Below are positions 833 through 52,710 of a stretch of DNA of 64,000 bases, piece by piece; within the stretch, counting starts at the first letter, position 1; each line of letters starts with the position of its first letter. The DNA comes from Nautilus pompilius. Its lineage: Eukaryota > Mollusca > Cephalopoda > Nautilida > Nautilidae. The DNA lies in contig JACATO010002730.1 in the NCBI GenBank assembly GCA_018389105.1, forward strand, positions 124,001-188,000, read 5' to 3'. A model generated the notes under the pieces. That model was not told where the DNA came from, ran no database searches, and saw only the letters and a program-made list of their open reading frames with translations. The translations under genes and the position numbers were made by a program.

Positions 833-3800
833 CTTATTAATTCAGACAAAGAATGTGGATTTCCATGACATTTAAAAAAAAAAAAAACTATACAATCTCC
901 CTATTTTAGTAATACATGAATATAATTTGAAATTTCTGTCCTTTGAAACGAACAAATTATGAAGCTGTATATTTTATTGAAAATAGCCAAAAAGAATCTA
1001 AATGCTTTTTCAGAATTAACAAATAACCAATAATGTAAACTTAGATCATGCATGTTTAAACTTTACATACAAGCTATTTCTTTTAATAGAATTTTCCTCC
1101 CACAATAATATCACCAGAATTTTTTTTTTCTTTTTACTTTTATACCCTGGTTGGTGAGTGCCATCACATGTAACAGAAAATAATTGGATACTATTTACCA
1201 ACATCAATCCCTTCTCCACCTTTCAGTTTCCTTTTGATTTGGTCATCAAGCAAAAGTAGCTGGTTGGTTGTTTTCCCTTTAAAGATATTGGCCACCTCAC
1301 TTCCAACAGATTGGTTGATTCCTTCTCGACGCTCTCCAGCATAATCTATAAATTGTACAGATTTACTAGTTAAATATAAGTGCATTGTTGCAATACAAAT
1401 CTACTCTGTAAAATATTCCGAATTTTTAATCACAACATTACCATTTAATTCCCTTGACATTTAAACCTGTCTAACTGAAGTATCTCAAAGATTCAAAATT
1501 AAATTAAATAAAAAATCTGATTTAACAGCTATTACATTATGACATTGCAAATCCAAATGGAATTTTGTCAAAAAAATGTAGTGCCGTGCTATTAGTTTGG
1601 CCACCTGAAAAATGAATGCATCTGACAAAAATGTACATACGAGGTCTGTTGAAAAAGTATCTGACTTAATTTTTTCCCGTGGGAAGTAATGATGTTAGGG
1701 AGGCAAAAGTGTGCATAGTGGAGCCTCATGCCTTCATGCACATGTGTGGTTTTTGGCAGGCTTGCTGGATGCGTCAGTTACTGTCAGGCAGCCAGCGTGT
1801 GAGGTGCTGTACTACTTACTCGTCGCATTTTCATTTCACTTGTGATGACGGAACGTGCGGAGCAACAATCTTGCATCAAGTTTTGCCAAAAGCTCAGAGA
1901 TATCAAAGCAGAAACAATTCGCAAAATTCAACAGGCTTTTGGTGACAATGCCATGGGTGTTACCCAAATAAAAGAATGGTTGGTACAACAGGTTTAAAGA
2001 TGGCTGCACATCAGTGGAGAGTGACCAGCGTTCTGGGAGGCCGTCAACAAGCCACATTGCAGTTGTTATCCAGAAAGTGCGGACCTTGATAATGGAGGAT
2101 TGTCGTTTGATGGTGTGGGAAATTGGTGATGAGGTTGGGATCAGTAAAGATTCTGCACATGCAATTTTAAAGGAGGATTTGGACTTGCGCAGAGTGACTG
2201 CGAAACTTGTGCCCAGGCTGCTTTCTCAGGAACAACAACAACTTCGTCTTGAGGTTGCGCAGGACCTGCTGGATACTGCCAACAGGGATCCTGAGTTCAA
2301 GAATACCGTGATAACTGGAGATGAGACATGGGTGTACGGGTACGATCTGGAAACCAAAGCTAAATCATCACAGTGGAAGCACTCAACGTCAGGTCCGGAG
2401 CAAAAAATCAAGGTGATGCTGACTGTTTACTTCGACTATCGAGGTGTTGTGCATCATGAATACACACCAGAAGGACAAACAGTTACAAAGGAGTACTATC
2501 AGGAAGTCCTCCAACGTCTTTGTGATGCAGTTCGGCACAAGAGACCAGATCTGTGGGCCTTGCAAAACTGGCAGCTGCATCATGACAACGCCCCGGCTTA
2601 TTCGTCGCAGCTGATCCAAGGTTTCTTGACAAAGAAAGGCATTTCGCTCATTTGCCAGGCTCCCTACTCTCCAGACATGGCTCCTGACTTCTGGTTGTTC
2701 CCAAAAGTGAAGATGCCACTGAAAGGCTCCTGCTTTGAGAGCCAAGAGGACATCATGCGGAATGTGATGGCAGAGCTGAGGGCCATTCCAGAAGAAGCAT
2801 TCCAGACATGCTTCGAACAGTGGAAGGATCGCTGGGCTAAGTGTGTGGAGGCACAAGGGGCCTACTTCGAAGGGGATTAGCAATTGAACCCCACCAAGTA
2901 CGTAATTTTTTTCCCCCAGCCTAAGGTCGGATACTTTATCGAGACCTCTTATTTTAAAAATGATTATCCATACATACATTTGACATTTAGGCAGGCAGAT
3001 AACTAGTATGCACTATCCCCCACACTGAAGACATGTGGATTGGGTTACATTTCTATTTTAACCAAAGTTCATGCTATAGGCAGTTCATAGGGCATTCAGA
3101 GTCAATGAAAAACAGCCAAAGATTTCAATAGTTTTCAAGGATCCCAAAGCAACGTTATCAACAATATTCAGCATGGTAAATGCCACTGCTGTGGCAGTGA
3201 TCTGGAAGGCTTTCAACAGTGACACTACAACAATAATGTGACATGTTCATGTTTTCTGCTGACATTTTCTTGCTGATATTGTCCATGCAGCAGAAATGAG
3301 CCAAGGATGGTTCAGCACCATCTCCACCAACTTGGCTACAAAGGGTGTGTAACATGTAAGAAATCCATTCTGTCCAAAAATAATAAAACAATACAAAAGA
3401 TCTAATCAGAGGACCTCTGGCAAGCATCACATACTGGCAACATGCTTCTTCACCAATGAGATCAGGTTTTAGCAATTCGTGGCTGAGATTTACAAATAAA
3501 AGATTTTAAAAACAAAAATTAAAATAAAAACAGACCCCACCCCCTTATCCTCCCACTCCGGTTGGATTTAATAAAAATAAAAAACGGCCTAAGCTCCTTG
3601 ACCTTTATAGCGTCTTAAGGACATAGAGAGAAAACTCTGTTCTAGAGGGTTCAGCCTGGATAAACCTATCTCTCCTGAGCATATCAGATTATGAAGGAGT
3701 TGGGTAGCCCGCTGCTCTCGCTAGGATGAGGTACACTAACATTAAGAAAAAAATAATACAGGTCGAAATAAGATCTCACTTATAAACAGCTAAGGCGGCC

Positions 3801-19900: not shown

Positions 19901-20700
19901 ATTTTTAAATACTAAGCTTTTACGGTGCGAGATGGATAAAATTAATTAATTTTCTAGTTTAACTCCAAGTTAGTATTTTCCACAAAACATCAAATCAAAC
20001 AACGACAACAATTTTATTTTTTCATTTTCAATTTTATAAAAAAAAATTTTTTAAATCGTGAAGGAACTCATTCTTAACTAAATAAACGAAGGATAACTAA
20101 AGTCAACTGTCAGTTCTGATGAGAACGTCATTACAATTTAATCTAATCATCTTCGTTTCAGTAAACGTAAATCATTTTTATCCGATTACAATAATCAGTT
20201 ATAAAAGAATAACGACATTAGTTTTTCATGCCGAAGGATAAGTTACTGAAGGGGGAATTAAAGGCATTATTGGATTAAAGCATGAATTATCGATATTACT
20301 GTAATCTAGTTTAAAGAGTTTACAAGGATATTTCAGGTATCATTCTGCTTTAAGTTTTAAATACTTCTGAAATCGCGTGCTGTATTTCATGACAACGCCG
20401 ACGACGTGAGACGTAAATTTCTTGGAGCGGAATTTAACTAAGGATTTTCTGCGCCGCACTGATTGCTGATGTAAATCCCTGTTCAAACTTTGTGACGGGG
20501 ATTGTTCTTCCATTACAGCGCTTGCTATATATTTTTTCAGAGAGTAACGGCACGTGCAGTTAGTTTCTGGTGCTGCAAAAGTTAATCATCGAAATTATCT
20601 GCATTACATCATTTGCTTCATCATAATGTAAAAAAAGAGCGAAAAGTATCAAACAAACAACATTTTTACTTTAATGAGATTCACTGATTTTGAAAAAATT
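16930..20700. other. No gene recognised
   Basis: AT-rich DNA with only short ORFs and no familiar motif. A possible tRNA-like scrap (GTTCGAGGACC near 17873) and the CT run at 17256 are the only marks I noticed. A short ATG frame at 19533 (24 codons) follows an acceptor-like TTTAAATCAG but has no support. Confidence 0.4.
17256..17274. repeat. (CT)n microsatellite
   Basis: Nine to ten CT dinucleotides. Confidence 0.85.
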
Positions 20701-20739
20701 AACTGAAAGGAAAACATAAAAAAAAAACGAAACCTAAAG

Positions 20740-23700
20740 TTGATATAGTTAATCTAAAAAACCGCAATTAAACAAAAAAGTTGATTAAAGTCAAGGTTAC
20801 CAAACAAATCAGGAAACGGTAATATAGGTAATCTAAGAGAAATTAAACAATTATTTAAAAGTGATGACATGCAGTAGACACTAGATAAATAAAGAAAATA
20901 CAACAAAGGAAATGTAAAAAAAAATCCAAAGAAATAAGAAAATCGTGATAAATTTAATATAAAAGAAATCAAATTAATAACAAAAGGCAATATAGTTAAT
21001 ACAAACCAAACTAATAATCAAATGATAATAAACCTAATGTAAAAGAAAACAAATGAAAAGAAATGATAATAAAGAAAACCTAAAAAAATCATTAAATGAT
21101 AATAATAAATGTTATGTGAAAATCAAAAGTAATTAACAAGTAAAGATAAGAGAAGGAAAAGTAATCAAACATATAAGCAAATAATGATAAATGTAATATT
21201 AAAAAAAATTAATTACTGATCACACAGTGATAAAGCTAATAGAAAAATGATAAACTAATAAAAATCATGGTCAAGCTAATGCAAAGAAAACAAATATAAG
21301 GCGAGCATAAATGTAATTTAAAAACAAAAGAATAAACAAACTGATATAAGAGTAAAAGATACAAAACAAACAAACAAATGGTGCTAAAGGTTATATAAAA
21401 GGAAGAAAAAAGTAAATAAATATAATGCGGATAATATAAAGAAAACAAACAAATAAACAAGAATGTAAGTTTAATATAAAAATAAAATAAATGGGGATAA
21501 ACATAATAAAAACAAATAAAGAAATTATTTAAATGCAATATAAAAGAAGTTAAACAAATAACAAAAAAGATAAAACTAATGTAAAAATCTAAGATATAAT
21601 ATAATAACTACACAAAAAATGTTAATGTATACTAATAGAAACAATAATTATAAACAAATTGTGGTAAACATATTATAATTCAGTCATAAATATAAACAAA
21701 TGGTCATAAATTAATGTAATTTAAAAGAAATAAATAAGCAATTAAAAGAAACCAAAGAAATAAACACATGAAAATAAAATTAATGTAAGTCTGGCGAAAC
21801 AGGTATAGAAACTGAAAAAAAATTTAATGTAACTAAAAGCAAAAATATAAGCAAATGACAATCAAAGTAATGTAAAATTAACCGAACAAATAAACAAATG
21901 ATGAAAAAAATAATTAATGTAAAGAAATCATTCATGTAAAAAACGGTCATAAAGTCTATGCAAAAGAAACGAAACAAAAAACAAAGTGATATAATGATAA
22001 TAAACAAAAACAAATCAAATATGCGAATGGTGATAACTGTTTGTGAAAAGCAAATATTTAAACAAATGGAAATAAACGTAATATAAAAAACCGAACCAAT
22101 AAACAAATAAAGAGAAAGATTGCGTAAAATTAGTGAAGAAAATATACAAATGGTAAACAATTTAATATAAAAACCAAACAAATGAAAGTGATAAAGGTAA
22201 TAAAACGAAAAAAATAATTATGCAAATATTTTGTAACAAATAAAAGAGTAAACAAAAAGTGTTTAAGATAATATAAAGGAAAGGAAATAAATAAACAAAC
22301 GGTGACTAATGTATTGTAAAAAAGCAATTGTAAATGAAACTGGAAATAAAGAAAAGGTGATAACGGTAATAAATAAGAAAGAGATTATGCAAACGATAAA
22401 ACTGCATAGTAAAAGAAACCAAACAAACAAGTAAATAGTGATATGGCAATGAAAAAATGAGTAAAATACGCAGTGATAAAGATAATGCAATTGAAACCAA
22501 GAAATAACTAAACTGTGATAAATGTAATGTAAAAATTCAAACAAATAAAAGAAACATGATAATTGTATTGTGAAAAGAAATAAACAAATGAACTTATTGT
22601 GTTAACGCTGTAGATTTGAAACCATAGAATAAACAAATGGTGGTAAAGGTAATGGAATTGAAACCAAAAAGTGATACTTGTAATGCAAAAGAAACCAAAC
22701 AACTACGCAAATGGTATAAAGGTAAGAAACTGAATTCCAGAAAATAACCAAGTAGTAATAAAGGTTATGCATTTTAAACCAAACAAATTACCAAGTGGTG
22801 ATAAATGTATTGTAAAAGAAAGCAAACTAATAAACAAATTGTAATGAATGTAATGTGCAAAAAAATTTAAGTAAACGATTATAAATGAAAGTATTGTAAA
22901 AGAACCAAAACAAGGTTTCAAAAGGCGACGAATATAATTTTGAAAAAGCCAGTATGTAAGCAGATGAAAATAAAAGTAATGTAAAAAAGCCCAAACTAGT
23001 AAACTAAAGAGGATAAAAGAAATGTAAAAGTAACTAAACAAATACAATGTAAATAAATAAAATATATAATCAAATTGTAATGGAGATGTAACATAAATTA
23101 TTTAAACAAAAAATAGTAATAAGTATAACGTAACGAAACCAAATAATTGGGCCGTTCACATAAACTTTTGTTCATTTCTATTGTTTCGATTAGAATGCCT
23201 TTATCAAAATTTTAAAATTTATTTCGCTTCCTTTACATTATATTTATCAGTGTTTGGTAAAAAAAACAAGTTAAATTAAGAAACGGATTAAAATTTAAAT
23301 TTAAAAGCCTCCAAAATTAAAAAGACAGTGATAATAGAAATGAAAAAGAAATTAAACAAATTGTGATAATGCTTAAAACATTAAAATAAACAAATAGCTA
23401 TAAATAAAATTAAGCAAACAACCAAACTTTTAATGTGTAATGTAAAAGAAAATAAATAAGCAAACAATATATGTAATTAAAATGGAGATAAAGATAATGT
23501 AGAAGAAACCAGGTGAATAAAAAAATTATAAAGGTAACAAAAATGCAAAAAAATAAAACAATAGCTCATAATTGTAATATAAAATAAACTATACAAGTAA
23601 CCAAATAATTAAATGAAACATACAAGAGATCAAAAGTATTAACTAATGGTAATAAACGTAATGTAAATTAAAACAATGAAATTATAAAATGATTTAGTTA

Positions 23701-23930
23701 ATGCAAAAGAAACCAAAAAAACATTACAAAAGGCGGTAAAAGCAATGTAAAAGAGAACATAAAAAAATAAACATTTGATAATAAATATAATGTAAAAGAA
23801 ACCAAATAAATATGCAAATAGGAATGAGGGTAATATAAAAGAAAGCGCATATAAATCAAATGTAAATAAAGGTAATGAAAATAAAACAAATAACACTGTG
23901 CAACACAAAATTTTTCGCATAAACAAAAAT
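20740..23930 (+). repeat. Degenerate minisatellite, units about 40 bp, roughly 75-80 copies
   Basis: About 3.2 kb is built from variants of one unit containing GATAAATGTAATGTAAAAG and AAACCAAACAAATAAACAAA. Unit length varies from about 36 to 43 bp and neighbouring units differ by substitutions and small indels, so it is old. The strand is A-rich. Many hydrophobic ORFs on the opposite strand (Phe, Leu, Ile, Tyr-rich, with recurring FFYITFI-like phrases) are translations of the repeat and not genes. Confidence 0.85.
23150..23265 (-). repeat. Inverted units inside the minisatellite
   Basis: Here the unit appears in reverse orientation (CTTCCTTTACATTATATTTA, then CAGTGTTTGG), with plus-oriented units on both sides. 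It suggests a small local inversion in the array. Confidence 0.6.
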
Positions 23931-24010
23931 AGATGATTTTGGTCAAATCATAAGTGCTGAGTTAAAAATGCACGTTAAAACATTGTATCACATATAGTTT
24001 TTTGTTATTG

Positions 24011-24031
24011 TGATATATATATATATATAGG
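24011..24031. repeat. (AT)n microsatellite
   Basis: About nine to ten AT/TA dinucleotides between the minisatellite and the transposon-type pseudogene. Confidence 0.85.
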
Positions 24032-24354
24032 CGTCCGAGTTCAAACAGTTGTAGAAATTCAAGGAGTGAATCGACGGAGCTGAAATTTGGTGAACAGATG
24101 GCAGGATGAATTCTCAGTCGAGTTGTATATCTGTTTCAGGATTAACTGGCCCAGTTATGGACTAGTCGACCTGGGACATCGGATGTAAGGGACTCAGATG
24201 TAAGGGACCAGTTTTCCAAGTCCAATCAAGGCAAAATATATTGATATCAACTCGGATGTAAGGAGCTTGTTAAATGAATGTGTATTTACAACATAATTGA
24301 TGCCAATTTTTTTACAACATAATTGAGGACAATAAACTAGTCAGTACCTACCAT

Positions 24355-26074
24355 ATGACAGATTCTTTGCCCCTTACCATGGCATCCGGACGAGTTTGTG
24401 CGAATAATCCAAATAGTTTTTGTTATGTTTGCGCCAAATTTACCAAAAAATCACAGCAGGGAAAAATTATAGATCTGGTCAAAGTTGCATACCATTCTTA
24501 CTTCATAGTCAAGCTTGGAGACCAGGACAAAAGTTGGGAGCCTCATATAAATTGCAATACTTGCTATTCTGGTCTCACAAAAATGGACGAAAGGCACTGG
24601 AAATATGCCCTTTGCAATTCCAATTGTTTGGAGAGAACCTAAGGATCACTAAACAGACTGTTATTTTTGTATGTCAATGATATCTGGGTATTCAACAAAG
24701 AACAAGCACAAAATAGAATACCATGACATCCACTCTGCTATAAAGTCTGTTTCTCACAGTGATGAGCTACCCGTTCCAATACCACCTTTTAACTATGAAG
24801 ATCTTCTTGAAGTTGGCAGTAATTGAGAACCGAAAAACAGGAAGTGGTCATCTGACAGTGATTACAACCCTGATAAGGAGAATGACCCACATTTGATAAC
24901 ACAATCTGAACTCAATGACTTGATTCGTGATCTAAAACTAACCAAGGATAATTCAGAATTGCTTGGTTCAAAGCTGCGGCAATGGAACTTGTTGGCACCT
25001 GGCACACTGATCTCAGTTTACAGGAATCGCGGTGAAAACTGGACAGCTTTTTTGAAACCAAGGAAATCTTTGCTATTGTACAGATATCAATGGTTTGATG
25101 AATGAACTGGGTTATTATCATAATCCGGATGAGTGACGGTTGTTTATTAATTCTTCAAAGCTCAGTCTCAAGGCAGTTTTGCTGCAAAATAGCAATATTA
25201 ATTCATCTGTCCCAGTGGCCCATGCAACTGGAATGAAAGAGCCATACAAATCCATGGAAACTATATTCAATGCCATCAAATACAGTGAACACAATTGGAG
25301 CATATGTGGGGATTTTAAAATGATTGGCTTACTTACTGGAATGCAAAGTAGTTTTACAAAGTATTGCTGCTTCCTTTATCTGTGGGATAGCAGATCCACT
25401 CAGCAGCATTACCAAAAGAAAGAATGGCCAAGAAGAGAAAGATATGTACCTGGTGAAAGCAGTGTAATGCACCAACCATTGTTAGCTCCTGAAAAAATTC
25501 TTCTACCACCACTGCAAATCAAATTAGGTCTAATGAAGAATTTTGTGAAGGCTATGAACAAAGAAGGTAATGTGTTTAAGTACCTCAGAAAAAAATTTCA
25601 AAAAATGAGTGATGCCAAACTGAAAGAAGGGATTTTCATTGGGCCTCAAATCAGAAAAACTCTTAATGATCCAGAGTTTGAGAAGCAGTTGAATCAATTG
25701 GAACTTAATGCTTGGCAATCCTTCAAAGCAGTTGTCTGTCACTGGTTTCTTAGGCAATAAGAAGAGAAAAGACTATATAGAGCTAGTCACCAAACTTATT
25801 GAAGATTACCATGTGATGGGTTGCCGCATGTCACTTAAAATGCATTTTTTATATTCACACGGACTTCTTTCTCCAGAATATGGGAAGCGTTAGTGATGAA
25901 CACGGAGAACGTTTTCATCAATAAATTTCCTACATGGAGCAGCGATATCAGGGCAGATATAATTCAACTATGATGGGAGGTTTTTGTTGGTTTCTTCAGA
26001 GAGAATCGAGTGTAAGCTACACGAGACACTCACGTAGTACAACATATTTCAAACAGAAGAAAGCTTCTGAATAA
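24355..26074 (+). pseudogene. Uncharacterised transposon-type protein, broken copy 1
   Basis: A relic of about 570 codons, in several frames. The N-terminal part (24355-24642) has CYVC and HINCNTC pairs suggesting a zinc-binding module. After a frameshift comes a DCYFC motif, GYSTKNKHKIEYHDI and DELPVPIPP. The C-terminal part (25140-25760) reads LKAVLLQN, ICGDFK, FTKYCCFL, KILLPPLQIKLGLMKNFVK and KEGIFIGPQIR, then SDEHGERFH in another frame, ending at TAA 26074. At least three frameshifts and several stops break it. It matches a multi-copy family known to me from arthropod and mollusc predictions without an assigned function. A second copy at 38640-40170 sits between inverted repeats, so a transposase is likely. 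Confidence 0.75.
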
Positions 26075-26239
26075 GATGATGCCGGAAGTGATCGAACCAT
26101 TCATGACAATGTACGAAACGTTTCTCACTGAAAAGTAGTATAAAATCTTGACTTTTACTGAATGGGGCATATTATGAAAATCTTTGAGGTATTTTCCTTT
26201 GAACTATTAAACTTCTAATAGCAAAAGATCTAGACGTGC

Positions 26240-26344
26240 TAGAGAAAAACGGATGGTACCATTGAAATCAGCGTGTAAAAATTAACCAGAAATATCTAAT
26301 TATACGTATGCGGAAAACAAAAAGTTGAAATTTGTTGCATAACA
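26240..26344 (+). mobile_element. Probable decayed right end of copy 1 element
   Basis: The reverse complement contains TTAATTTTTACACGCTGATTTC and then TAGCACGTCTAG, matching the subterminal part of the element at 38640-40170 (CTAATTTTTCATGCTGATTTC, then CAGCACGTATCAG). Counting the same 69 bases outward lands on TGTTATGCAAC, a weak match to the CACTGGTCAAC terminus. I could not find the left end. Confidence 0.45.
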
Positions 26345-38636: not shown

Positions 38637-38639
38637 TTA

Positions 38640-40170
38640 CACTGGTCAACAAGTATTTTTCATCAAGCATATGTCAAGGTGTACTAGTGTAGTTTTTAAT
38701 GCTGATTTCAAATATATAATTAGTTTTTTGACATCACGTACAGTTTTCAAGATGAGAAATTTTTTGATTTTAGCTCATGCATTATATAGAAATTCCAATT
38801 AATGACATCTATGCATGTATTTCATTTATATCATGGAAACATACCTTTAAAATAAACTACATTAGTCATTGCTGCATTGTTCAGATGCAATCATCTTAAA
38901 TTAACCAATCAAGTTTTGTCTGATGAAATAATTATTTCAGCATCTCATATTGTCAAGTTTATTGACTTTTCAAGACGAAGTTTAAAAGCTGTACTTCTCC
39001 ATAATGGTAATTTGAAGCCCTCCATTCCTATTTCACACTCCGTTCATCTTCATGAATCATATGAGAATATGGAACTTTTACTTCATGCCATTGCCTATGA
39101 AAGATACTCATGGAAAATATGTGGAAATTTAAAATTCATTGGAATGTTAATGGGAATGCAGTCAGGTTTCACAAAATACTGTTGTTTCTTGTGTCTATGG
39201 GATAGTCGGGAAACTGACAGACATTATTCGGAATCAAACTGGCATACAAGAACATTATACCAGCCAGGACTGTCTAGCGTCAAGAATACACCTCTTGTAG
39301 ATCCATGAAATGTCCTATTGCCTCCTTTGCACATAAATCTTGGACTGATGAAACAGTTTGTAAAGACACCAAGGAAGAGAAATGCCAGAGGGTTTGAGTA
39401 TATTGTAGAAAAGTTTCTCAAAATCACACAGGCGAAGTTGAAAGAGGGTATCTTTGTCGGACCCCAAATTAGAGAAGTACTCAAAGATGTCAACTTCAAG
39501 ACAACACTGGATGAACTGGAACTGCCTGCCTGGAATGCTTTCAATTGGATCTGTGAGAATTTCTTGGGCAACAAGAAGGCAATGGACTACAAGGATGGCA
39601 TCAAGAATCTTCTGAAATTTTACTCAGCAATGGGTTGTCGCATGTCACTGAAAGTTCACTTCTTGAACTCCCATCTGAATTTATTCGCAGATAACCTTGG
39701 AGCAATATCTGATGAACATGGTGAAAGATTTCACCGGGACATTAGTGCTATGGAGAAACGGCACCAAGGCTTCTAGAATGACAGTATGCTGGCTGACTAC
39801 TGCTGGACACTTTACCTTGATCAACCAGATCAATAACACCGCAGGAAATCCAAATCACAATGTTTCTAACTCTGTTGTTCTAACTTTTCTGTTTTGTCTG
39901 ACCCATTTTTTGTGTATTCACTCTTTGTAGAATGATAGTGATGATTTTTAACTCAATAAACTCATTTACTTTCTAAAAATAATATGTCCTTATTTATTAC
40001 GTTAATGATTTCATATATACAAATATGTAAATATTTGCATGTATCTACTGAAAAACTGATACGTGCTGCATACAAATGGAGTGAAATTTTGAAATCAGCA
40101 TGAAAAATTAGTCTAAAAAGTTGGTTTGCATTCATAATGAGTATAATACATTTAATTTAGTTGACCAGTG
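38640..40170 (+). mobile_element. DNA transposon of unassigned superfamily, 1531 bp
   Basis: It begins CACTGGTCAAC and ends GTTGACCAGTG, a perfect 11-bp terminal inverted repeat. TTA stands immediately outside each end (38637-38639 and 40171-40173). Inside both ends, in inverted orientation, ATGCTGATTTCAAA recurs about 70 bp in and a CACGTA..CAGTTTT block further in, which looks like transposase-binding subterminal sequence. CACTG ends with a 3-bp duplication recall the EnSpm/CACTA-Chapaev group, but other groups cannot be excluded. The protein is described separately. Confidence 0.75.
38877..39836 (+). pseudogene. Transposase-type protein of unknown family, copy 2 (two nonsense codons)
   Basis: One continuous frame of 320 codons, interrupted only by TGA at 39306 and TAG at 39774, ends at TAA 39834. 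Landmarks are LKAVLLHNGN, WKICGNLK, GFTKYCCFLCLWDSR, LLPPLHINLGLMKQFVK, AKLKEGIFVGPQIR, MGCRMSLKVHFLNSHL and SDEHGERFHRDI. It matches the C-terminal half of the relic at 24355-26074. The N-terminal half, including the Cys-rich region, is missing, so this is an internally deleted element. The acidic residue in ICGDxK of copy 1 is Asn here. No function is established for the family; its location between inverted repeats supports a transposase. Confidence 0.75.
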
Positions 40171-40904
40171 TTATCAAAAAACACGCAACATGGTTAAAAA
40201 ATTTTATGTATTGAAATTTAAAATTTGATTTTAATTGAAGGCATACTTTGTTTAGTTACATTTGCTGCTTACATTTTGCGTAGTCACTTCAGATCAAAAA
40301 AATCTCCAGGGAAACCCATATCGGTAAATCAACGGTAAACTGAAAATTATAACAGGACCAAAACGGAACGACTTTCTAACCACTAATAATCGTCCAATTT
40401 GCACCTTCACACTGATAAAAAGATGCAAATTTATTATTTTTATGTTAACAAATACAATAAAAATGGAAACGTAAATTAGTGTGAAATTTATAAAACCCTC
40501 AAACAAAGATTTCAATGTTAAAACAAACATATTTGCAGCTTTAATATTTGTTATATGTTCAAGAATGTCTGCAGAGTCCCATTTCTGCGTCCAAAGAAGT
40601 AATAAAGTTTCATTGTTTAATGAATAGTGACGATTGCTGGCTCATATTTTTCAAACATTTAAACATCGGATTAAAAAGAAAAATTAACAAAAGAAATTAA
40701 GATGATTGAATGTCTCGGATTAGTTATCAGAAGACACTATAACGTGCATGAAATTTAAGATATAGATTTCCCATAATGTTTTTGAAATGCAAAAATGAAA
40801 TTTGTTTAGTTTTTTAAATAAGTTTATTAGAAATAATTTTATAAAATAATGCATCGATTACTTAGCTTCAGGTTAGGTTTATATCGACTATTTTTTGCTG
40901 CGGT

Positions 40905-51082: not shown

Positions 51083-52710
51083 CATCGGTGTGCAAAAATC
51101 TTGCATAGAAATGACTAGACTTAGAAAATGGGTTCTTATTTTGTAGAAATTAGTGACTATTGTATGCTTTCTGTTTTAATTGAAAGGTATCGATGTCTTT
51201 AAACGATTTATAACACTAAGATCCATTTTTAATTGCACAGTCAAAATTTAAATAATACAATAATTAGCATGAAATCGGCGTGTGCAAAAGTGTTGCATAA
51301 ACTACAAAAAATTATAATATATATTTTGTGCTATAATAGTTTAGGATGGTAGAATATAAATATGAAAAAACTGTCATTTTCCACTATTCTGATTCATTTT
51401 CGTTCAATAAAGTGATGCCGAGAGTCACATATTTGACCCCCAAACAGCGGGCCACAATCGTTCGCTTGAAAGAAGATGGTGAAACTGAGTGGGTTATTGC
51501 GGATCGTATCGGTTGCAAGCAGTTGACGATATCTCGCACCCTGAAACGTTGGAAAGCCGATGGGAGCCTAATTTCGAAACGCAGAGCCGGCAGATCGCGG
51601 AAAACGACGGCTCGACAGGATCGTCTGATCGCCCGTATATCGAACTCGGACCGATTCCGCACTTCCACAGACATCCATACCGCCTTGTCAAGGCACCATG
51701 GGATCCAGTTGGCCTCGTGCACCATCAGACGCAGACGGCGTTTGATCCACATGGGACTGTTCGGGTGATCGGCACAGAAGAAGCCGTTCATAAGTCTGGA
51801 CAATCGTCGAAAACGACTGCAGTGGGATCGCGACCATCTCCACTGGATCGTGGCCCAGTGGCCCCGAGTGTTGTTTTTGGCGAAAGCAAATTCGTGAAGG
51901 TCTACTCGGTGGGTTGGATGTAAGTTCGGTGATCGATATCCGAGAAATACCATCCTAGTTACACTCGACCGACTCTGCAGGCACGGGGATATGCTGTTTT
52001 CAATCGTCCGGTGTCGGGCCGTTGCATCACGTGGAGGGTCGAATGAATGCTCATGACTATGCTAAGATCGTCTCGGACATTGTCGAACCGTATATGTGTG
52101 ACCACATGCCCCTGACGGCCATCTATCAGCAGGACATTGCCCCTATCCACACAGCTAGGTGTGTCAAAGCCTTGATGGCAGAGTTGCGAACCCCCTCCTC
52201 GACTGGCCGGCTCAAAGCACGGATCTCAATCCCATCGAAAACATTTGGCACTCGAATAAACTCAGCGTTATTGCCAAAAAGCCGAAAAATAAAACCGATT
52301 TGAAACGTAAAATCAAGGAAGCCTGGTCAGAGTTCAGTAGTGACAATTGTCAGCGTTTGATAGCAAGCATGCCTCGTCGTTGTGAACAAGTTATCAAGAA
52401 TTTCGGATATTCTATTCATTATTGATAGATCTGATCACTTTCTGCATAATTGGAATTGAATCTGAATTGATTAGATATCTGTCTAGTTTTTTATGCAACA
52501 CTTTTGCACACGTTTATTTGATGCAAATGATTTTCTAAAAATTATAACTTTTCTTACAATAAAACAATATGCTTGATAATATTGGAATGGATGTTCAACA
52601 GTAATATAGAAATTCTCTAATGAACAAGATTTGATAACAACTGCTTTCTATAAAATGCGAGCTAATTTACACAAAAAATTATTTTTATGCTAGACTTTTG
52701 CCCACCGCTG
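51083..52710 (+). mobile_element. Tc1-type element with IR/DR double-repeat ends, 1.63 kb
   Basis: The outer ends are CATCGGTGTGCAAAAATCTT and, reversed, CAGCGGTGGGCAAAAGTCTA, each bordered by TA (51081-51082 and 52711-52712). About 195 bp inside each end an inner repeat recurs: CGTGTGCAAAAGTGTTGCAT at 51279-51298 and its inverted copy at 52490-52512. Long inverted ends with two direct repeats each are the IR/DR layout of Sleeping Beauty-like Tc1 elements. Confidence 0.85.
51414..52425 (+). pseudogene. Tc1 transposase of the IR/DR element, frameshifted
   Basis: ATG 51414 opens the paired DNA-binding domain (TYLTPKQRATIVRLKEDG, then QLTISRTLKRW). The frame breaks after RRLIHMGLFG (51768) and continues shifted as KKPFISLDNRRKRLQW and VAQWPRVLF. 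At the first catalytic block VLFSDESKF the Asp codon has lost one base (near 51880), leaving ESKFVKVYSV in another frame. The second block IYQQDIAPIHTARC (near 52130) and third WPAQSTDLNPIENIW (near 52205) are intact but in different frames. It ends with SMPRRCEQVIKNFGYSIHY before TGA 52423. The family is normally about 340 residues with a D,D34E triad; this copy is inactive. Confidence 0.85.

Follow-up and report, generated by a model that had tools for sequence, protein, structure and literature searches.

The stretch of DNA analysed here (the window) comprises 64,000 nucleotides of the Nautilus pompilius genome (assembly GCA_018389105.1, contig JACATO010002730.1, positions 124,001 to 188,000 of the forward strand), and contains a short element, delimited by exact terminal inverted repeats of 11 bp and by the trinucleotide TTA on both sides, which encloses the remnant of a protein-coding frame; the coordinates of its parts, together with those of a more decayed relative, are collected in Table 1. 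A previous sequence-only reading of this stretch had reported perfect inverted ends flanked by TTA, mirrored subterminal blocks including CACGTA, and a frame carrying the motifs SDEHGERFH and PPLHINLGLMK. All of these features are present, the blocks occurring at both ends on opposite strands and the two motifs belonging to one frame, which is interrupted by TGA, TAG and TAA stops; the interval that had been delimited, 38637..40173, corresponds to the element plus both target-site duplications. That reading missed the internally deleted state of the copy and the presence of the diverged relative. If the inverted repeat is searched for along the window allowing at most one mismatch, three matches are obtained against 0.70 expected, a number reached in 4 of 100 shuffles, while perfect matches are confined to the two ends of the element.

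Table 1. Position and strand of the two elements of the window and of their component parts.
Feature	Position	Strand	Remarks
Whole element, internally deleted non-autonomous copy assigned to Chapaev3	38640..40170	+	1531 bp
Left terminal inverted repeat CACTGGTCAAC	38640..38650	+	11 bp, exact
Right terminal inverted repeat CACTGGTCAAC	40160..40170	-	11 bp, exact
Left target-site duplication TTA	38637..38639	.	preceded by A
Right target-site duplication TTA	40171..40173	.	followed by T
Left subterminal bipartite block GCTGATTTCAA-N23-CACGT	38701..38739	+	candidate transposase binding site
Right subterminal bipartite block GCTGATTTCAA-N23-CACGT	40061..40099	-	mirrored with respect to the left block
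Internal deletion junction (approximate)	38957..38958	.	two aligned pieces overlap by 2 bp
Transposase remnant	38958..39866	+	residues 252-554 of the 554-aa form
In-frame stops of the window frame	TGA 39306-39308, TAG 39774-39776, TAA 39834-39836	+	all in one frame
Second decayed element of the same group (approximate)	23894..26339	+	transposase remnant 24391-26047

Alignment to full-length copies found elsewhere in the genome reveals that about 840 internal bp are missing from the window copy (positions ~329-1169 in the numbering of the copy L036), so that the N-terminal half of the open reading frame, including its Cys/His part, is gone. Moreover, an Asn replaces the candidate second catalytic Asp (ICGNLK instead of ICGDLK), a substitution encountered in only one other distinct copy among the scored loci (L019). 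Because of the internal loss, the three in-frame stops and this substitution, the window element is a dead copy; its differences from the open copy L031, some 20.5 nonsynonymous and 1.5 synonymous, fit decay without constraint.

The window's own assembly (728 Mb) was searched for other copies, and their ends coincide with those of the window element: exact left ends preceded by ATWA occur 601 times and exact right ends followed by TWAT 640 times, the reversed control patterns giving no match in either case; the 20-bp pattern employed for the right end is the majority end of the family, from which the right end of the window copy itself differs. The leftmost 150 bp found matches 97-100% identical in 40 out of 40 scored cases (the best 40 of 1027 first-look candidates), and the protein is likewise far from single-copy, all 150 scored matches having E < 1e-89 (150 of 5618 candidates, most of them unscored). 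It must be kept in mind that most of the sampled copies were chosen by protein match, and thus that lengths, target-site duplications and coding content describe a non-random sample. As for the flanks, the share of left ends carrying ATWA is taken from the flanks actually read, where it amounts to 43 of 51 distinct ones. Both ends were read in 33 distinct copies, the window copy included; ATWA stands on the left in 26 and TWAT on the right in 27 of them. The two 3-bp flanks are identical in 24 of the 33 (11 TTA, 11 TAA, 1 ATA and 1 CTA), so that a consistent flank, as anticipated by the sequence-only reading, is the rule, with identical TWA pairs in 22; in the other nine copies the flanks are not identical, two of them pairing TTA with TAA and seven carrying TWA on one side only. 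Four further pairs, recovered from short pieces, are TTA/TTA, TAA/TAA, TAA/TAA and TTA/TTC (a fifth belongs to one of the copies included above). In 14 left/right end pairs matched by eye, preselected for ATWA and TWAT, the same W was found in 11 and TTA on one side with TAA on the other in 3. Mixed TTA/TAA flanks despite intact ends are seen at C20:245321, C29:507899 and C36:270285 and at loci L026 and L028; recombination between copies is one possibility for their origin.

Paralogous empty sites are available for one insertion, that of the copy L022, which lies within repetitive sequence. When its two flanks are joined through a single TTA, the query matches 38 places besides the two sides of L022 itself, at 76-97% identity (best 40 of 54 candidates); 29 of the 38 extend 8 bases or more past the join in both directions and, as judged from the extents of the alignments, 19 of these 29 are equal in length to the query, the remaining 10 differing from it. 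The window element has no empty counterpart in the genome, its flanks being unique: the joined-flank query matches only the two sides of the element itself, and these two matches overlap by the three TTA bases.

Ten full copies measure 2331-2390 bp, and two more of that length have less regular flanks. Pairwise divergence among the ten averages 2.4%, and each departs from the majority sequence by 0.9-1.9%; such a low divergence indicates that the family spread recently. Among the nine long frames that were translated, at loci chosen by protein match, five (L031-L035) run without interruption from MSRQ into the C-terminal region and the other four start later, behind frame breaks; in L031 (2294 bp) an open frame of 618 codons yields a protein of 554 aa from MSRQ, which contains the first likely Met. 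Within this young family dN/dS is 0.73 (36 pairs), a value which is uninformative since copies decay after insertion. The shorter copies can be grouped by the breakpoints they share; one breakpoint, 344/1357, recurs in 5 of the 33 paired copies, whose flanks differ, as would be expected of copies moved in trans by full ones. In L036, overlapping alignments at positions ~254-338 suggest short repeated units before the open reading frame, variable between copies.

The protein encoded by the full copies presents, in this order, D254, D308, C327-x2-C330, LH376, H485-x4-H490 and E504/E507; in other words C(2)C, LH and H(4)H, the published Chapaev motifs, follow one another between the second Asp and the Glu. 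Conservation of these positions was assessed on tblastn rows, in which overlapping loci are counted more than once: C327 is kept in 48/53 rows, C330 in 49/52, H376 in 51/52, H485 in 47/48 and H490 in 49/49, the second element of the window departing at C330 and H376. The candidate catalytic residues, assigned by position, are D254 (29/34 rows), D308 (42/46), E504 (48/49) and E507 (49/49); D254 is replaced in 5 of 34 rows and D308 in 4 of 46, three of which are the window locus. The N-terminal region harbours the CxxC pairs 13/16, 57/60 and 93/96, along with H54 and H109. An N-terminal Chapa zinc finger is described for Chapaev3 in PMC4411706, and these Cys/His pairs could represent it; no Chapa hit was seen in Pfam for the L031 protein, zf-AD appearing as a weak match at a sub-threshold E of 0.68.

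The family had been known to the sequence-only reading as uncharacterised predictions only; this holds insofar as Pfam and NCBIfam return no hit above cut-off (best sub-threshold values in Pfam: STI1-HOP_DP 0.024, Baculo_8kDa 0.079, besides zf-AD; in NCBIfam: FtsA 0.1), but what it reflects is a gap in annotation rather than an unknown kind of element. No match above chance was obtained in PHROGs, where, of the window pieces P0001 and P0002, the latter gave two at ~0.26, nor was any relative retrieved by a sequence search of the PDB, whose RAG1 chains gave no detectable match; FtsA, at E 0.74-1.8, was taken as a chance match. No relative was confirmed by tblastn in viral and prokaryotic contigs; the DEHGERFH codon pattern had no match in viral contigs, and nine prokaryote loci containing it, which have little beyond the peptide in common (best E 0.72), were discarded. 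The four motif peptide strings do not occur in the literature searched. An AlphaFold model, built from an alignment of three window-only translations, has a mean pLDDT of 34.9 and a pTM of 0.24, values too low for the model to be of use.

Taken as a whole, these properties indicate that the element is very probably a dead, internally deleted copy of a cut-and-paste transposon of the Chapaev3 group (CMC/CMCT clade), and that the protein is its transposase. The sequence-only reading had pointed to the EnSpm/CACTA-Chapaev side, and the placement can be narrowed to Chapaev3 by the traits given in PMC4079192, that is TWA duplication, CAC..GTG ends, motifs and size; homology to the group is judged by motifs and anatomy, named families being compared through their published descriptions. 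In PMC4079192 the Chapaev motifs are given as C(2)C, LH and H(4)H, the TWA duplication lies between A and T in all Chapaev3 elements examined there, and a 556-aa transposase is reported in an element of 2,289 bp. Garfield, Merrow and Conan, as described there, share with the Nautilus family the TWA duplication preceded by A and followed by T, the CAC..GTG termini (present here in the exact ends and in the paired copies), a transposase of ~556 aa in which the same three motifs occur, an element size of ~2.3-2.45 kb and the occurrence of internally deleted derivatives. Differences also exist: the transposase is encoded here by a single open frame from MSRQ, whereas Garfield and Merrow have two exons (most other Chapaev3 appearing single-exon, according to PMC4079192), and the 601 exact left ends exceed the copy numbers among the entries consulted for Garfield and Merrow in its table. 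On this reading, the Nautilus family is a further member of an already known group.

The residue order of the protein matches that described for the CMCT clade in PMC12730594, where C(2)C and H(3-4)H lie between the second D and E. Transib and RAG1, which belong to this clade, have the same arrangement and CA..TG ends, according to PMC12730594 and PMC4411706; in the latter, the legend to Figure 2 of Kapitonov and Koonin places both Chapaev and Chapaev3 within the Transib superfamily. The duplication found here, TWA, is 3 bp long, both in the 33 pairs and at the empty sites of L022. Transib and RAG, by contrast, produce 5-bp target-site duplications. RAG1 has D708 and C727, and the spacing of 19 residues between D308 and C327 equals that between these two, a coincidence which may serve as a lead, not as a test.

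Among the alternatives, a sister lineage not described before, still within the CMCT clade, having TWA duplications in common with Chapaev3 and branching outside it, would agree with the fact that named Chapaev3 are compared by description and that Pfam and NCBIfam give no hit above cut-off; nevertheless, every published Chapaev3 trait that was tested to an answer is present, and we regard such a lineage as improbable. An element of EnSpm/CACTA proper, with CACTG ends and outside Chapaev3, is highly improbable: it would share the CACT(G) termini, the clade-level motifs and a short duplication of 3 bp, but would leave aside the A-TWA-T preference, the transposase length and the size of 2.3-2.4 kb, all close to the Chapaev3 values in PMC4079192. 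At E values up to 10 the L031 protein has no Pfam hit to a CACTA transposase domain, nor to the Harbinger DDE domain, in both cases an absence of hit only. The CACTA domains are those named Transposase_21 and kin. TWA duplications are also known in PIF/Harbinger, and the TTA and TAA target duplications of the family would suit an element from that side; against it, the ends are CAC..GTG, the succession C(2)C, LH, H(4)H is that of CMC/Chapaev, and a Pfam search with the L031 protein returned no DDE family, Harbinger or other, leaving this assignment with very little credit.

The inverted ends around the frame had been considered direct structural evidence that the family is a DNA transposase. 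The conclusion is supported by the same-ended copies, the TWA flanks, the high copy number and the Chapaev motifs, but a single copy is insufficient for it, as a captured gene could sit between terminal inverted repeats. That the protein represents a host gene captured by the element, or a passenger in it, the element being moved by another transposase, is indeed compatible with the window copy taken alone and with the existence of deleted copies, and the presence of the protein in all full-length loci proves nothing by itself, because most of these were fetched by protein match and contain it by construction; yet this is the least credible of all the readings, given that the full copy L032, translated in three forward frames, shows no other long frame, that in a diverged subfamily, whose terminal repeats have other letters, this protein recurs together with these subterminal blocks, and that the protein has the motifs of the Chapaev catalytic region. 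For ten loci the left end was the sole criterion of choice; both ends were found in three of them (L001, which is the window copy, L004 and L007), all with the C-terminal part of the protein.

The diverged subfamily is represented in the window by the second element, whose transposase pieces are 54% identical to the main family over the longest aligned stretch. Its left end is CACTGTGCAACA, with ATAA in front, while at the right end the last 5 bases seem to be missing and the TAA flank is kept; the end sequence of this subfamily, together with ATWA, occurs 58 times genome-wide (control 0). Between the two window subfamilies dN is 0.39 and synonymous sites are saturated (110 differences over 125 sites), from which it follows that the protein was under selection.

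The subterminal blocks of both subfamilies conform to the pattern GCTGANTTNAA-N22/23-CACRT, which occurs in the window four times, precisely once at each end of each element, and in none of 100 shuffles; this count is post hoc, the pattern having been written from those four ends. Genome-wide, 1681 matches were obtained, as opposed to 8 with the reversed control. In the main family, 31 left ends were examined: 12 have no exact block, and in 17 of the other 19 it lies 62 bp from the tip. Of 34 right ends, 10 have no exact block, and in 21 of the other 24 the distance is 72 bp. The window element has 61 and 71. Constancy of this kind carries little weight by itself, since the copies of a family are related by descent. 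For the second subfamily, both measurable left ends (in the window and at C84) give a distance of 62, and the right distance is 67 at the single end available, in the window, which would become 72 if five terminal bases were lost there. The protein matches of this subfamily with at least 75% identity (C49, C59 and C84), inspected by eye among the matches listed up to contig C95, have at least one correctly oriented block nearby in three out of three cases. The spacers of the 12/23 recombination signals differ by about one helical turn, and the ten-base difference between left and right ends also corresponds to about one turn, the likeness being our own reading. That Chapaev3 ends might possess a fixed one-turn asymmetry, which in a relative of RAG1 would be a counterpart of the 12/23 pair and would enforce the pairing of left with right, is a speculative extension which we hold to be unlikely; the 62/72 arrangement is, in any case, the only part of these results that might surprise a specialist.

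On the Chapaev3 assignment, a mechanism may be outlined. The longer relatives would supply the transposase, encoded in one frame of ~554 aa; its N-terminal Cys/His region and neighbouring parts would bind the ends, the probable sites being the subterminal blocks located 62 bp from the left and 72 bp from the right tip, and a putative DDE core of RNase H type (candidate residues D254, D308 and E504 or E507) would cut at CAC..GTG, the C(2)C and H(4)H pairs being predicted to bind zinc. The excised element would then join ATWAT targets with a 3-bp stagger, whereby TWA is duplicated; shorter copies, such as that of the window, presumably arose by internal deletion and may have been moved in trans.

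The assignment provides a name and a role for a protein family present in at least hundreds of copies with no Pfam or NCBIfam hit above cut-off, and it allows predicted proteins bearing these motifs to be masked as Chapaev3 transposase instead of being counted as host genes. The combination of a large set of young insertions with a sharply defined candidate binding site makes end recognition by a RAG1-related transposase testable.

Other features of the window include an open mariner-type transposase frame at 1972-2880 (+), of 302 aa between stops (Pfam Transposase_1, E 1.4e-13), and a 142-aa frame with helix-turn-helix hits at 51340-51768 (+), which looks like, and was labelled by us as, the N-terminal part of a Tc1-like transposase. 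The region 20001-24000 displays a strong excess of A over T (AT skew 0.31-0.36) and a few short, degenerate A-rich tandem units.
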